Of a stretch of DNA of 64,000 nt, positions 7,469 through 14,414 are shown piece after piece. A model generated the notes under the pieces. That model was not told the origin of the DNA. It worked only from the letters and a program-made list of their open reading frames with translations, and did not search any database. This DNA is from Collinsella sp. An2 (GTDB lineage Bacteria > Actinomycetota > Coriobacteriia > Coriobacteriales > Coriobacteriaceae), in contig NZ_NFJW01000002.1 in the NCBI RefSeq assembly GCF_002160065.1, positions 124,001 through 188,000 on the forward strand, given 5' to 3'. The position numbers and the translations under genes are program-made. Numbering within the stretch: the stretch's first letter is position 1; each line of letters starts with the position of its first letter.

Positions 7469-7807
7469 CGTTGTCCTCCTGCTGCATTTCTTGCAATCAA
7501 TGAAAGGCCAATTAACAGGCACTAGAGCTTTCAGATTGTATGGAATACCGCGCGCGGATGTCAACAAAACAATTGCATATATCCCGAAGTCACCACAGGT
7601 GAACGGCAAGATTTGCACGCTTTGAACAGCGCGGGTGAATTATTTCATATTCTTTCACGCACATTTCCACAGGCTCAGTGGAAGTTGTTGATAACTTTTC
7701 GCAATCTTTCTTCACTTTTCAACAGGTTTTGAAAAGTTGTGGAAAGATGTGTAACTGTCCACGGTGAGCTACTATCTTGCTGAAACCGCGTGAAAGATTG
7801 AGAAACC
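7469..7807. other. oriC: Upstream DnaA-box cluster, candidate oriC part 1
   Basis: The strand of all genes flips here. Between 7660 and 7765 lie several DnaA-box-like 9-mers: TGTTGATAA at 7686-7694 (reverse TTATCAACA), TTTTCAACA at 7716-7724, TGTGGAAAG at 7738-7746, ATTTCCACA at 7663-7671 and a weaker one near 7755. Most differ from TTATCCACA by one or two bases. The rest of the stretch is the rpmH promoter and leader. Confidence 0.7.
7535..7564 (-). promoter_or_regulatory. Strong sigma70-type promoter of the rpmH operon
   Basis: On the minus strand TTGACA (7564-7559, perfect -35) is followed by an 18-base spacer and TACAAT (7540-7535, -10 with 5 of 6 matches). Transcription would begin near 7528, about 60 bases before rpmH. 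Confidence 0.8.
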
Positions 7808-9166
7808 ATGGCAGACGACTTCTATCCCTTCGTGGACTCGGGCGACCGAGCACCGGACAACAGCCACATCACCGGCGAAGCCGACACCACGGAACGCGCC
7901 GACGAGCCCCTCGGCACCGAGGCGCCACGGGCTGCCTTCGCGACGCGTATCGCCATCTATGACGACATGTTCTCTACGCCGCGTGTCGTGGTGATAGAGC
8001 CCAACGAAGTGCGCCCCTATCTTGAAGAGGTAACCAACACGGTGTACCGCTGCATGAAAGAACAGGGCGGCAACGTCTCGCTCATGGTGATCAGAGAGAT
8101 CGTCGAGAACTTCATCCACGCCCACTTCGTCGAGCCCATCATCTCGATTCTCGATGGGGGCAACACCATCCGCTTCGCCGACCAAGGGCCCGGCATCGCC
8201 GACAAGGAGCGCGCCTTTGAGTTTGGCGTGACGTCGGCAGACCGAGATATGAAGCGCTATATCCGAGGCACCGGCGCGGGCTTTCCCATGGTGCAGCAAT
8301 ACCTTGAAGCCGCCGGGGGCGCCGTGTCGATTGAAGACAACCTGGGCGCCGGCACGGTCGTGACCGTGAGCCTGGACCCGGCGCGCGTAAGCGAGATTCG
8401 CGCAACCGCCTCGCGCGGCGCGGCGGTGCGGGGAGGGACTGTACAGGGACAGGCGCCGCAACAGCAGGGCCTGTCCCAGGCGACGCCGAGCCCTCAGCAG
8501 ATGACGCCCATGCCCAGCGAGTCCGCCCCGTACACGCCGGATGGCACCGCACCCAGCGCAACGCCCGCCGCGGCACCCTGGGCAGGACCGGAGGCCGCGC
8601 CTTATGCCCCGGCGCCATCTCCGGAGACGGGCGGCGCACAGAACCCGCAAGCCGCTGGTAACGTAGGCAACGGAACATATCCCCAGGCAACGCCGGGAAC
8701 TCCGGGATACATGCCGCCCGCGGGATACCCCGCACCGCAAGGGAGCTGGGGACAGCAGGGCTACTGGCCCGGATGGAATCCGGCGTATCCCACTCAGTCC
8801 TATGCGACGCCGGCGTGGCAGGCCCAACCGGGCGCCGCAGGATATCCCTTCGGTTATCAACAGCCCTACCATCAGTTTTCCACAATTCAACAACCGGCTG
8901 GTCAAGCCTATGGTTCGGCGCCCCAAGGCACGGAGGCTACAGGTATGACAAGCGGGCCCTACGTAAGCGAGCGCGGACGCCTGGCGCTGGCGTTTCTCCT
9001 GGAGCACGGGCAGGCAGGGCCCACCGACCTGGCAACGGCGTTTGGGCACTCGGGTCCCACGTGGTCACGAGAGCTTGCTACACTGAATGAATGCGGATTC
9101 GTGGTAAAACACGGCCAAAAGTATCACCTCACCGAGCTGGGATCGTCGTGGACCCGGTCCCAGTGA
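7808..9166 (+). CDS. GHKL ATPase fused to a C-terminal winged helix, directly upstream of dnaA
   Basis: 452 residues. Residues about 85-200 form a histidine-kinase-type ATP-binding fold: N box REIVENFIHAHF, G1 box FADQGPGIAD, G2 region YIRGTGAGFPMVQQYLEAAGG and the closing LGAGTVVTVSL, closest in style to the SpoIIAB/RsbW type. No phospho-acceptor His domain is visible. A Pro/Gln/Ala/Tyr-rich, probably unfolded linker spans about 215-375. The last 70 residues (GRLALAFLLEHGQAGPTDLA through LTELGSSW) look like a winged helix. It lies between the upstream DnaA boxes and dnaA, where most bacteria have dnaA itself. The role is unknown; sensing, anti-sigma-like or origin-linked regulation are all possible. 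Start: ATG at 7808, weak upstream site. Confidence 0.8.
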   Translation: MADDFYPFVDSGDRAPDNSHITGEADTTERADEPLGTEAPRAAFATRIAIYDDMFSTPRVVVIEPNEVRPYLEEVTNTVYRCMKEQGGNVSLMVIREIVENFIHAHFVEPIISILDGGNTIRFADQGPGIADKERAFEFGVTSADRDMKRYIRGTGAGFPMVQQYLEAAGGAVSIEDNLGAGTVVTVSLDPARVSEIRATASRGAAVRGGTVQGQAPQQQGLSQATPSPQQMTPMPSESAPYTPDGTAPSATPAAAPWAGPEAAPYAPAPSPETGGAQNPQAAGNVGNGTYPQATPGTPGYMPPAGYPAPQGSWGQQGYWPGWNPAYPTQSYATPAWQAQPGAAGYPFGYQQPYHQFSTIQQPAGQAYGSAPQGTEATGMTSGPYVSERGRLALAFLLEHGQAGPTDLATAFGHSGPTWSRELATLNECGFVVKHGQKYHLTELGSSWTRSQ

Positions 9167-9240: not shown

Positions 9241-10971
9241 ATGGACAACGAGGCGAAAATCATCCTAGACGACACCATCTCGTTTTGCAGGAGAGACGGA
9301 CGCGACGCCCGTCTTATCAACATGCTTGCCCAATCACTGCCGCTCGAGCTCACCGACGAGAGCCTCACCATCGAGGCGCCCTCCCGCTTCGCCTATGCCT
9401 ACCTCATGAAGCAGCGCGAGATCATCGAACGCTATCTGGAGGAGATCGCGTTTTGCCCCCTGTCGTTGCATGTGACAGTTCCGCAAGATCCCGCCGCCAC
9501 CTCGCAGACGCCCGTCGCGCCCGCACCGTCCGTCGAGCGAAGCGCTGCCCCGGAGGCGCATGCGCCGGCCGCCTCGGCGACCATGGCCTATCCCGAGAGC
9601 GCTCCGATAGCCGAGCCTGCGGTCGCGACGCCCGTCGATGCCATGCCTGCGAGGCCGGCAGCATCCACACTGGAGGCGGCGCCGTCGCCCTTCACTGCCG
9701 CAGCGGACACCAAGGTCACGGTCACCAACACGCTTTCGCCCGAGGCGTTTCGCAAGATGGTCGCCACCATGAAGGGCGAGGAGCAGGCGCGTCGTGCAGG
9801 AACCCCCGCACCCGTCGCGCCGTCGCCAGAGCCCGAAAGCGCCCCGGCGCACCAGGCGCACGCCAACTCGAAGTTCACGTTCGAGAACTTCGTCTATGGC
9901 GACGAGAACAAGCATGCCTACCAGTCGGCCGTCCGCTTTGCCGCCATGGCCGAGGAGCCTGGCAGCTGCACGTCGCTGTTCATCTATGGAAACTCTGGCC
10001 TTGGCAAGACGCACCTGCTGCTCGCGATAAAGAACTATCTCAACGAGACGAAGCCCTACATCCGCGTGAAGTATGCGAACTCCCAGGCTTATATCGACGA
10101 CTTCATCAACGAAGTCGCCATCCAGAAGACCGAGGGACGCGCCATCCTGCGCGACTACCACGATGCCGATGTGCTCATCATCGACGACATCCAGAACATC
10201 ATCGGCAAGACGGCGAGCATCGAATACTTCTTCCGTCTCATGGACGAGTTCATCCGAGACAACAAGAAGATCGTGATCGCATCGGACCGCGCACCCAAGA
10301 AACTCGGCATGGACGAGCGTCTCACCAGCCGCTTCAACGCCGGCATGCTCTGCCTGGTGTCCGAGCCGGGCTTCGAGATGAAGTACACCATCCTCAAGCG
10401 CTACTACGAGCACACCATCCTGCCTGCCGCCGAGGCGGAGCGCACCGCAGGCACCGGCGACGATTCGCTGCTGGGAACCATCCGCTCGGGAGGGGGACAC
10501 CTCACCGACGAGCAGCTGCGGCATATGGCCGAGATCTCGGGCACCAACATCCGCGAGCTCGAAAGCTTCTGCGAGCGCTGCGCGGGCGACTCGTTCGAGA
10601 AGGAGCAGGCTGGCCAGGAGCTCACCGGCGACGACATCGACCGCATCGCGAACGAATACTTCGACACGGCGCACAAGAAGATCCACGTCGACACTGTGCA
10701 GGCCGTCGTCGAGGAGTTCTATCACGTAAGCCATGAGGACCTCATCGGACCCCGGCGTCCGGCAAACATCGCCTTCGCACGCCACGTGGCCGTCTATCTC
10801 GCCATGGACATGTGCGAGATGACCACCCCCATGGTGGGCGCCGAGTTTGGCGGCCGCGACCATTCGACCGTCCTCAACTCCATCAAGGTCATCGAAAAGA
10901 AGGTTAAAGAGGACCGCAGCCTCGTCGAGGACCTTCAGCTGCTGCGCAACAAGATCATCCTGCGCTCATAG
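9241..10971 (+). CDS. dnaA: Chromosomal replication initiator DnaA
   Basis: AAA+ initiator that binds DnaA boxes and melts oriC. It has 576 residues, about 100 more than the common length, because domain II (about 90-215) is a long Pro/Ala/Glu-rich linker. Domain I occupies the first 80 residues. Domain III has Walker A GNSGLGKTHLL (around 251) and Walker B VLIIDDIQNI. Domain IV ends with the DnaA-box reader EFGGRDHSTVLNSI. Between Walker B and domain IV there is an extra Gly/Glu-rich insert near EAERTAGTGDDSLLGTIRSG. Start ATG 9241, preceded by a modest purine-rich stretch. Confidence 0.97.
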   Translation: MDNEAKIILDDTISFCRRDGRDARLINMLAQSLPLELTDESLTIEAPSRFAYAYLMKQREIIERYLEEIAFCPLSLHVTVPQDPAATSQTPVAPAPSVERSAAPEAHAPAASATMAYPESAPIAEPAVATPVDAMPARPAASTLEAAPSPFTAAADTKVTVTNTLSPEAFRKMVATMKGEEQARRAGTPAPVAPSPEPESAPAHQAHANSKFTFENFVYGDENKHAYQSAVRFAAMAEEPGSCTSLFIYGNSGLGKTHLLLAIKNYLNETKPYIRVKYANSQAYIDDFINEVAIQKTEGRAILRDYHDADVLIIDDIQNIIGKTASIEYFFRLMDEFIRDNKKIVIASDRAPKKLGMDERLTSRFNAGMLCLVSEPGFEMKYTILKRYYEHTILPAAEAERTAGTGDDSLLGTIRSGGGHLTDEQLRHMAEISGTNIRELESFCERCAGDSFEKEQAGQELTGDDIDRIANEYFDTAHKKIHVDTVQAVVEEFYHVSHEDLIGPRRPANIAFARHVAVYLAMDMCEMTTPMVGAEFGGRDHSTVLNSIKVIEKKVKEDRSLVEDLQLLRNKIILRS

Positions 10972-11236
10972 CGGGCGCAGGCGTTACTAGCCAGCACGCT
11001 CGGCGTGCAGGGACAAGGTGTGAAAAGGAGCGGGAAAGGGTGTTGAGAAGTCGATGCCGTACGTGGAGAATTGGGGAGGGTGTTCGTGGCTGTTGATAAC
11101 CACCCCTGTTCTCAACATGGGAAGGTCAACAACTCTATGAGCCGCGACCTGCCCGTTTGCTAGTTGCCCACACCGTCCACGGTCTTATTACTATTATGAA
11201 AGATATATCTCTATAGATATAAAGAAAGGGAGCGCC
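10972..11236. other. oriC: dnaA-dnaN spacer with DnaA boxes and AT-rich segment, candidate oriC part 2
   Basis: TGTTGATAA at 11091-11099 is the reverse of TTATCAACA. Partial matches occur at 11041, 11109-11117 (TTCTCAACA) and near 11128. A short AT-rich tract (about 11184-11226) just before dnaN could be the unwinding element or simply the dnaN leader. With the boxes at 7660-7765 this would give a bipartite origin. Confidence 0.6.
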
Positions 11237-12667: not shown

Positions 12668-13849
12668 ATGACGATCTTCGCGCGCGAGTTGGCGGTGCGT
12701 TCGTATCGAAGCTACGAGACGTACGACCTCGCGCTCGCCGACGGCGTGACGGTGCTTGTGGGCAGAAACGCCGTAGGCAAGACGAATCTCATCGAAGCGT
12801 TGCAGCTGCTCACCACGGGCAGGTCGTTTCGACGGCCGTCGCCGGTAGAGCTCGTGCGCGCCGGCTGCGACCGCTGCCGCCTTGAGCTGACGCTCGAGGG
12901 CGAGGGTCGTGTCATCGACATGGCGCTCGAGGTGTCCGACGGCAAGCGGTCTTTTCGTCGCAACGGGAAGCGCTGCGCCGCCTCGGGCGTTCGCGGCGTC
13001 CTGCCGTCTGTCCTCTTCTGTCCCGACGACCTTGACATGGTCAAGCGCTCTGCGCGCGTGCGCCGCGACGCGCTCGATGCCTTTGGCATGCAGCTCAACG
13101 AGCGCTATGCCGAGCTCGTAGGGACCTACGAGCGCATCGTCGAGCAGCGCAACAGCTTGCTGCGCGAACGCGCTTGCTCCCCCGACCTTATGGCCGCCTG
13201 GGACGACGCCCTCGTGACCACAGGCGCCGCCCTCATGGACCATCGCATGGCGCTGCTGGAACGCATCCGCGTCCATCTGGTGCGCGCCTATGGCAGCATC
13301 GCCCCGCACGAGCAGGCAGACGTCGCCTACGTTCCCTCTGCGAATCAGGAAGGCGCCGAGGATGCCCCGCTGCCTGCAGACCGTGGTGCCCTGCGCGAAC
13401 AGCTGGAGAACCAGTTCCGTCACAGGCTCGAGGAGCTTCGCGACGAGGAGTGGCGCCGCGGCATGACGCTGGTGGGACCACACCGCGACGAGGTCGCATT
13501 CAGCATCGACGGTCGTCCCGCGCGGACCTATGCGTCTCAGGGCCAACAGCGCAGCCTGGTGCTCGCGTGGAAGGTCGCCGAGGTGGAGGTCACGCGCGAC
13601 ATTCTCAGCCGTCCGCCCTTACTGCTGCTCGACGACGTCATGTCCGAGCTCGACGCCCATCGCCGCGACGCGTTTTTAGGTTCAATCGAGGGTGAAGTCC
13701 AGACCGTCATCACCACGACGAATCTGGGGTATTTCACCCCGGACGTGCTCGGGCGCGCCCGCGTGATCGAGATCGGCGGCGCGGAAGGCGACCCCGCCCC
13801 CGCCTCCGCGTCGGCGCCGGTCGGAAAGGGGGTTGCACGTGAAACATGA
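12668..13849 (+). CDS. recF: DNA replication and repair protein RecF
   Basis: SMC-like ATPase that loads RecA at gaps with RecO and RecR. It has 393 residues. Walker A is GRNAVGKTNLIEAL (about 33-46), the ABC signature region is SQGQQRSLVLAWK, and Walker B is LLLLDDVMSELD. GGAAGGAGGGG lies 3-13 bases before the ATG. The last 25 residues are Ala/Pro-rich. The stop overlaps the start of the next gene. Confidence 0.95.
   Translation: MTIFARELAVRSYRSYETYDLALADGVTVLVGRNAVGKTNLIEALQLLTTGRSFRRPSPVELVRAGCDRCRLELTLEGEGRVIDMALEVSDGKRSFRRNGKRCAASGVRGVLPSVLFCPDDLDMVKRSARVRRDALDAFGMQLNERYAELVGTYERIVEQRNSLLRERACSPDLMAAWDDALVTTGAALMDHRMALLERIRVHLVRAYGSIAPHEQADVAYVPSANQEGAEDAPLPADRGALREQLENQFRHRLEELRDEEWRRGMTLVGPHRDEVAFSIDGRPARTYASQGQQRSLVLAWKVAEVEVTRDILSRPPLLLLDDVMSELDAHRRDAFLGSIEGEVQTVITTTNLGYFTPDVLGRARVIEIGGAEGDPAPASASAPVGKGVARET
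13831..13846. other. Degenerate parS-like site at the recF/DUF721 junction
   Basis: GGTTGCACGTGAAACA matches the parS consensus at 14 of 16 positions, with the right half perfect. It lies inside the overlap of the two genes and next to the downstream start. ParB binding is only a suggestion. Confidence 0.4.
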
Positions 13850-14414
13850 CGATGCCCTTCGTTCACGCAAGACCGTCGGCCTCGACGCCTTTTTGGGCGC
13901 CGAGCGCAGCCGCATCATAGACGCGGCGACGCCCGAGCGCCGCGAACAGATGCATGCTGCCGAGCGCACCCGTGAGGTCTATCGTGCCTGGAATGCCGTC
14001 TGCGGCGGCACCCGGGAGGGCGGCCACGTGACGGGCCTTCGCTATCTGCCCGAGTCCAACCAGCTGCTCGTTTATGCCGACGCTCCCGCATGGACGCAGG
14101 AGCTCACCATGCTTCGCGAGATCATTCGCGCCCGCATGGCGCGCGAGGGGATTGACCTTGACGGGTTCGTCTTTCGTACCTCGCGCCCCGGTTACGGCTC
14201 CACTGAGGGGTCCCCGCGCAAGGGCCCGCGACCTCGCGGAGCCGCCTCTCAGGCGAAGCCTGCGCCCAGGTGTCCTCTCACCGACGATGAGGCTGCCTCG
14301 CTTTCACGCGCGGTTGAGCCCATCGAGGACCGTCGCCTCCGAGACGCCCTTAAATCGGCCATGGCTGCCAGTCTTGAGTGGAAAAAGGGTAAGGAAGCCC
14401 AAAACAAGCCTTAA
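13839..14414 (+). CDS. DUF721 / DciA-like protein
   Basis: About 191 residues. The family (DUF721) includes DciA, the loader of replicative helicase in bacteria without DnaC, and is typically found between recF and gyrB in Actinobacteria. The conserved KH-like part is LPESNQLLVYADAPAWTQELTMLREIIRARM. The C-terminal tail is basic. The start is uncertain: a GTG at 13839 lies 7 bases after GGGGG, whereas a TTG at 13833 overlaps that site. It overlaps the recF end by 11 bases. Confidence 0.8.
   Translation: MKHDDALRSRKTVGLDAFLGAERSRIIDAATPERREQMHAAERTREVYRAWNAVCGGTREGGHVTGLRYLPESNQLLVYADAPAWTQELTMLREIIRARMAREGIDLDGFVFRTSRPGYGSTEGSPRKGPRPRGAASQAKPAPRCPLTDDEAASLSRAVEPIEDRRLRDALKSAMAASLEWKKGKEAQNKP

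Follow-up and report, generated by a model that had tools for sequence, protein, structure and literature searches.

A GHKL-ATPase/winged-helix protein paired with DnaA in Collinsella and its relatives: a candidate control switch of DNA replication

The gene that precedes dnaA in Collinsella sp. An2 encodes a protein with a GHKL ATP-binding domain, intact ATP-site motifs and a C-terminal winged helix; its pairing with dnaA is fixed, and it lies downstream of an actinobacterial DnaA-box element. A role in replication initiation or in dnaA transcription is plausible, and we regard the protein as a strong candidate for a switch that controls DNA replication and has so far been overlooked. To our knowledge, the control of initiation has been worked out in only a handful of model species and little studied in Coriobacteriia and other early-branching Actinomycetota. 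A protein that almost always accompanies dnaA, and seems made for binding ATP as well as DNA, offers a testable entry into initiation control in Collinsella, Eggerthella and other abundant gut bacteria. The pairing further places a nameless protein family, for which no whole-protein model was found in Pfam or NCBIfam, in a likely context.

The window (the whole stretch of DNA analysed, 64,000 nucleotides) contains the features listed in table 1. A sequence-only reading had proposed an ATPase/winged-helix ORF immediately before dnaA; this ORF is real, stands where it was placed and encodes 452 aa, with 74 bp between its end and dnaA. It is divergent from rpmH, and rpmH, rnpA, yidC, jag and parAB all lie to its left in the opposite orientation; dnaN, recF, a DUF721-type gene and gyrB are found downstream of dnaA. 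The DUF721-type (DciA-like) gene, at 13833-14414 between recF and gyrB, overlaps the end of recF. DnaA of the window has a long low-complexity Ala/Pro-rich region ahead of its ATPase domain.

Table 1. Features of the GHKL/winged-helix gene and its surroundings, in window coordinates.
Feature	Position	Strand	Evidence or remark
GHKL-ATPase/winged-helix gene, 452 aa, first of the dnaA cluster	7808..9166	+	ORF list
Short conserved N-terminal motif MADDFYPFV	7808..7837	+	inspection of N-termini
GHKL (HATPase_c) ATP-binding domain, residues ~45-190	7940..8377	+	Pfam; invariant columns, 56 sequences; AF2
Pro/Gln/Gly-rich linker, predicted disordered, residues ~191-386	8378..8965	+	AF2 pLDDT mostly 31-55
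C-terminal MarR/IclR-type winged helix, residues ~387-452	8966..9163	+	AF2 pLDDT 84-98; VIA-align; Pfam HTH matches
dnaA, conserved partner gene	9241..10971	+	Bac_DnaA E 5e-44, Bac_DnaA_C E 2e-21
DnaA boxes ATTTCCACA (7663, +) and TTATCAACA (7686, -)	7663..7694	both strands	box scan
Three-DnaA-box element, box(+) N2 box(-) N2 box(-)	7716..7746		61 bp before ATG
Two DnaA boxes in linker DNA: 8854-8862 TTATCAACA, 8876-8884 TTTTCCACA	8854..8884	+	exact boxes
DnaA boxes in the dnaA-dnaN gap (11041, 11091, 11109)	11041..11117		box scan

Domain architecture and comparison with known proteins

The Pfam model HATPase_c matched residues 94-191 of the window protein (E 7e-11, above the cut-off) and was matched by all 43 members scanned. 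Pfam, alignment and fold matching together revealed the N, G1 and G2 boxes on a Bergerat fold that are the hallmarks of the GHKL superfamily. The N-box residues E97, E100, N101 and H104 (window numbering) are invariant over 56 sequences, as are D125-G127-G129 of G1 and G154-G156-G158 of G2 in alignments of 43-56 homologues, so the ATP site is intact. By analogy with other GHKL proteins, the domain is likely to be an active ATPase. An AlphaFold2 (AF2) model of the window protein, built with 56 homologues, consists of two confident domains (both mostly pLDDT 90-98) and a disordered linker (mostly <55). The pLDDT of the GHKL domain is mostly >90 with dips near residues 141-160, and only a short, low-confidence N-terminus precedes it. 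A compact homologue of 272 aa from Candidatus Hakubella was predicted to have the same two domains (mean pLDDT 85.6).

Winged-helix models in Pfam matched residues 391-446, the best being HVO_A0261_N (E 8e-8), just below its cut-off; the window protein scored 32.5 for this model and 20.2 for HTH_IclR, against gathering scores of 35 and 22, and individual homologues exceeded such scores (TrmB, 36.6 versus 25.6 in L053; IclR, 23.3 versus 22 in L061). VIA-align placed the domain with MarR-family chains, some of them DNA-bound, at Z 12-13 over approximately 70 residues. The winged helix is probably the DNA-binding half of the protein; its recognition region differs between Coriobacteriales and other homologues. 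The combination of an ATP-binding and a probable DNA-binding domain, proposed from the letters alone, is supported. The same reading had noted that a phospho-acceptor is missing, in agreement with the lack of a HisKA match up to E 1 in the Pfam scan of the window protein and of any DHp-type two-helix domain in the AF2 models of that protein and the compact homologue. It had also described a long Pro/Gln linker, which is present in the window protein and confined to Coriobacteriales; most homologues outside the order are 255-290 aa long and have no linker, so that the linker does not define the family. The N-terminus reads DFYPFV in Coriobacteriales and usually M-K/R-x-F-(F/Y/L) elsewhere, a conserved motif that is possibly a protein-binding peptide.

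The label ‘SpoIIAB/RsbW-like’ given earlier to the ATP-binding domain holds for the GHKL fold, for the N-box E-x-x-x-N (E97, N101) and for the lack of a phospho-acceptor domain. It does not extend to the family models, since the domain matches HATPase_c whereas HATPase_c_2 (PF13581) was matched by only 2 of the 43 members at E ≤ 0.01, and spIIAB (TIGR01925) gave the window protein 14.3 bits against a cut-off of 135. Unlike SpoIIAB and RsbW, moreover, the window protein has a C-terminal winged helix and is paired with dnaA rather than with sigma or STAS genes. Most sequence and fold matches were to the catalytic domains of sensor histidine kinases (PF02518, e.g. HK853), but the window protein has neither a DHp domain, a sensor domain nor a paired response regulator. 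Its C-terminal domain shares the fold of MarR/IclR/ArsR/TrmB regulators (Z about 13), although its fusion partner is a GHKL ATPase and not the dimerization or ligand domains of those proteins.

The closest solved architecture is DIP2311 of Corynebacterium diphtheriae (PDB 3lmm), which we take to be an AlbA_2/HATPase_c_4/winged-helix (COG2865-type) protein. This structure is the best match for the GHKL domain (Z 14.9, 150 residues, rmsd 2.8), has a GHKL domain followed by a winged helix in the same order, and aligned with the compact homologue over 264-280 columns in Foldseek. However, identity is only 16%, DIP2311 is longer, with approximately 230 residues ahead of its GHKL region, and neither AlbA_2 nor HATPase_c_4 (PF13749) matched the window protein up to E 1 in Pfam. 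The earlier statement that no counterpart had been described stands for function and naming, no description of the protein having been found in the literature searched, which lay largely outside subscription papers; the architecture has a precedent in DIP2311. None of the best 25 NCBIfam matches was a known DnaA regulator (Hda or another NCBIfam-modelled family), a comparison that reaches only those regulators with a model there. A reading as a defence system was discarded, since the only PADLOC matches were weak ones between the winged helix and CasR/CARF models.

Distribution and pairing with dnaA

Homologues of the GHKL/winged-helix protein are found across Coriobacteriia, Rubrobacter, Hakubella and other deep Actinomycetota, with strong matches (E ≤ 4.5e-24) in at least 125 of the 149 Coriobacteriia genomes sampled. 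Members of the named-genome scan include Collinsella, Enorma, Eggerthella, Gordonibacter, Slackia, Adlercreutzia, Rubrobacter and Candidatus Hakubella. The same scan, and it alone, extended the range beyond Actinomycetota, to Candidatus Sysuimicrobiota and to two metagenome-assembled genomes (L106 and L114) whose label of Bacillota is taken from the record title alone; ‘lineage-specific’, as the gene had been called, is accordingly too narrow. Candidatus Sysuimicrobiota bacterium CSP1-3 (L095) is nearest to L104 and L117 in both GHKL and DnaA distances, irrespective of the record titles. Weak matches in other Actinomycetota (E about 1e-4 to 1e-9) look like ordinary GHKL or histidine-kinase domains and were left out of the homologue counts. 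The search for phage or viral relatives yielded none, and the plasmid matches listed are partial GHKL matches only (40-62% of the query, <40% identity). The gene is chromosomal and has been inherited in a broadly vertical manner.

A gene widely found away from dnaA would, by the sequence-only reading's own criterion, have refuted its proposal; the result was strongly in favour of that reading, for the gene lay directly upstream of dnaA in 80 of 80 loci, the best 80 of 335 relatives from a named-genome collection that was scanned by pattern and tblastn without the use of dnaA. A synteny survey of Coriobacteriia, as the sequence-only reading had advised, gave a similar picture: by coordinates among the matches listed, 116 of the 125 strong matches stand upstream of dnaA, on the same strand and 1.8-3.1 kb ahead of the DnaA C-terminal domain. 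The other nine comprise five single-contig genomes cut at dnaA, two in which separate contigs carry the gene and dnaA (we read these as assembly breaks), one without a dnaA match and one (G100) with the gene alone inverted yet beside dnaA. In this last locus (L164) only the GHKL gene is flipped, so that it diverges from dnaA over a gap of approximately 600 bp, possibly through misassembly. Outside Coriobacteriia, 63 genomes have both positions among the matches listed; the two genes are adjacent in 53 of them, the remaining ten being divided equally between genomes cut at dnaA (five) and genomes with the genes on different contigs (five).

Over 146 loci, the median gap between the gene and dnaA is 15 bp; the gap is ≤30 bp, or the genes overlap, in 93 of these and exceeds 100 bp in 15. 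Eight of the 80 loci, in Adlercreutzia, Slackia, Eggerthellaceae and Coriobacteriia records (L120, L127, L135, L137, L139, L143, L149 and L150), have the gene and dnaA inverted together relative to rpmH and/or dnaN, a joint inversion which shows the pair to be more strictly conserved than its surroundings. Distances in the GHKL and DnaA trees are correlated (r 0.54, permutation maximum 0.12), which is consistent with shared vertical inheritance, a process that alone would yield such a correlation. The gene has been lost in a few lineages. Seven Coriobacteriia examined (L083, L166-L171) lack it, with an rpmH-dnaA gap of 404-783 bp and an intact dnaA, so it is dispensable in some lineages and not universally required. 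Nor is it found beside dnaA in any of the 19 loci sampled from other actinobacterial families. At one locus (L183, 4595-7332), dnaA is seemingly in two pieces beside transposase-like ORFs, the result of an insertion or an assembly problem.

DnaA boxes around and within the gene

The gene had been placed between DnaA boxes and dnaA, and the counts agree: with one mismatch allowed, the 336 bp upstream of the gene in the window hold five boxes (shuffle mean 0.39), and the 265 bp dnaA-dnaN gap holds three (shuffle mean 0.15). A further box is present inside the window's dnaA, at 9314. Among relatives, exact boxes number 326 over 132 rpmH-GHKL gaps and 166 in dnaA-dnaN gaps, versus 2.8 and 1.9, respectively, expected from mononucleotide shuffles. 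In the six inverted pairs that could be measured, 16 exact boxes occur in 3.7 kb on the GHKL side and one in 2.4 kb between rpmH and dnaA.

Part of this array is a three-box element, box(+) box(-) box(-), with short spacers that are usually 2 and 3 bp across loci. A search of the 700 bp before the gene detected its geometry in 95 of 148 loci, compared with 3 of 740 shuffles; the element lies upstream of the GHKL gene, not between that gene and dnaA. We considered whether the element is specific to gene-bearing genomes, which is ruled out: at ≤3 mismatches it was found in 85 of the 148 loci with the gene and, before dnaA, in 7 of the 19 actinobacterial loci without it. Because the gene stands behind an element that directly precedes dnaA in many gene-less actinobacteria, it is probably part of the dnaA operon, and the simplest reading is that it lies between a dnaA promoter element and dnaA. 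The gaps between the genes suggest co-transcription.

Alignment of the upstream regions within four groups showed conserved blocks that are mostly DnaA boxes, with no common palindrome that might serve as another type of operator. Group-specific candidates were observed. In the window's family, conserved TTTCA-type repeats at 7643-7660 precede the first DnaA box, and a copy that is 83% complementary stands at 7788-7805, immediately ahead of the start codon. In Rubrobacter-type loci, CTGCAAA occurs twice in most of L129, L130, L132, L141, L145 and L053, and the copies flank the three-box element upstream of the GHKL gene.

The two boxes within the gene are 22 bp apart and hence in different reading frames, and they fall in the part of the protein predicted to be disordered, which together favour selection on the DNA. 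Across the window's family they lie about 307-337 and 285-315 bp from the gene end; both are present in L015, L018, L026, L153, L160 and L161, others have one exact box, and they are missing in L003, L014 and L016, among others. Box density in the GHKL gene is 0.47 per kb against 0-0.17 per kb in neighbouring genes, an excess that comes partly from longest-ORF starts, since the first tenth of some ORFs may be intergenic. The tandem arrangement suggests control elements of the origin or of dnaA within the gene.

Possible roles of the protein

We favour the view that the protein is an ATP-responsive DNA-binding regulator of the dnaA operon or the origin, co-transcribed with dnaA, a reading that falls just short of an even chance. 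The same transcript would make the regulator and DnaA; the GHKL domain would bind ATP and probably hydrolyse it, since its N-box Glu and Asn have the spacing known from GyrB, MutL and SpoIIAB, with the Glu four residues ahead. Binding or hydrolysis might then alter the oligomeric state of the protein, the winged helix would bind sites in the origin or dnaA promoter region, and the bound regulator could tune dnaA transcription, and so initiation frequency, to the nucleotide state. In this scheme, we infer DNA binding, the target site and the effect on dnaA or initiation. It draws on the upstream position in all of the best 80 of 335 loci, recovered without dnaA, and the inversion of the pair as a unit in eight of them, on the mostly short gaps between the two genes, on the invariant ATP-site motifs and the confidently predicted winged helix, whose best matches include DNA-bound MarR structures, on the correlated trees, and on a record free of phage or viral relatives and of plasmid matches over most of the protein. 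The three-box element also counts in its favour: it lies before the gene, not between the gene and dnaA, and in many related actinobacteria without the gene it precedes dnaA. Against a dnaA regulator stand the conserved upstream blocks, which are mostly DnaA boxes and yielded no operator, the intact dnaA of the seven gene-less Coriobacteriia and the differing recognition regions of the winged helix. Co-transcription is read from gaps only, of which 15 in 146 exceed 100 bp, and the inertia of gene order near the origin likewise holds together rpmH, rnpA and yidC, which have no regulatory link. It is possible, if rather doubtful, that the protein is a control module of replication initiation that has gone unrecognized in deep-branching Actinomycetota and Candidatus Sysuimicrobiota: switched by ATP and co-expressed with DnaA, it would read the nucleotide state and act at oriC or on DnaA so as to set the timing of initiation, with part of the box array lying inside its own gene in the window's family.

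The boxes embedded in the gene, the origin-type clusters that flank the pair on both sides and the strict pairing with dnaA, inversions included, would also suit an orisome factor whose effect on initiation is direct, not via transcription: bound to DnaA or to origin DNA, it would help or hinder the assembly of DnaA, an action dependent on ATP; the conserved N-terminal motif could bind a partner. We consider this unlikely, since the winged helix is like that of ordinary transcription factors and the best 25 NCBIfam matches include no known DnaA regulator. A SpoIIAB/RsbW-style serine kinase or partner-switcher, directed at DnaA or another protein and using the winged helix as a protein-binding module, is improbable: the N-box Glu and Asn are conserved as in SpoIIAB and 18 of the 43 members gave weak spIIAB matches, but the window protein's own score is far below the cut-off, HATPase_c_2 is scarce among members, and dnaA, with no sigma or STAS gene seen, adjoins the GHKL gene. 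It is also fairly unlikely that the protein is a passenger, the regulator of an unrelated regulon kept beside dnaA by gene-order inertia at the origin. Gene clusters near the origin are conserved in general, and several lineages have lost the gene while keeping dnaA; however, the inversion of the two genes as a pair and gaps that are mostly ≤30 bp indicate that the gene is linked to dnaA specifically, not to its neighbourhood at large.
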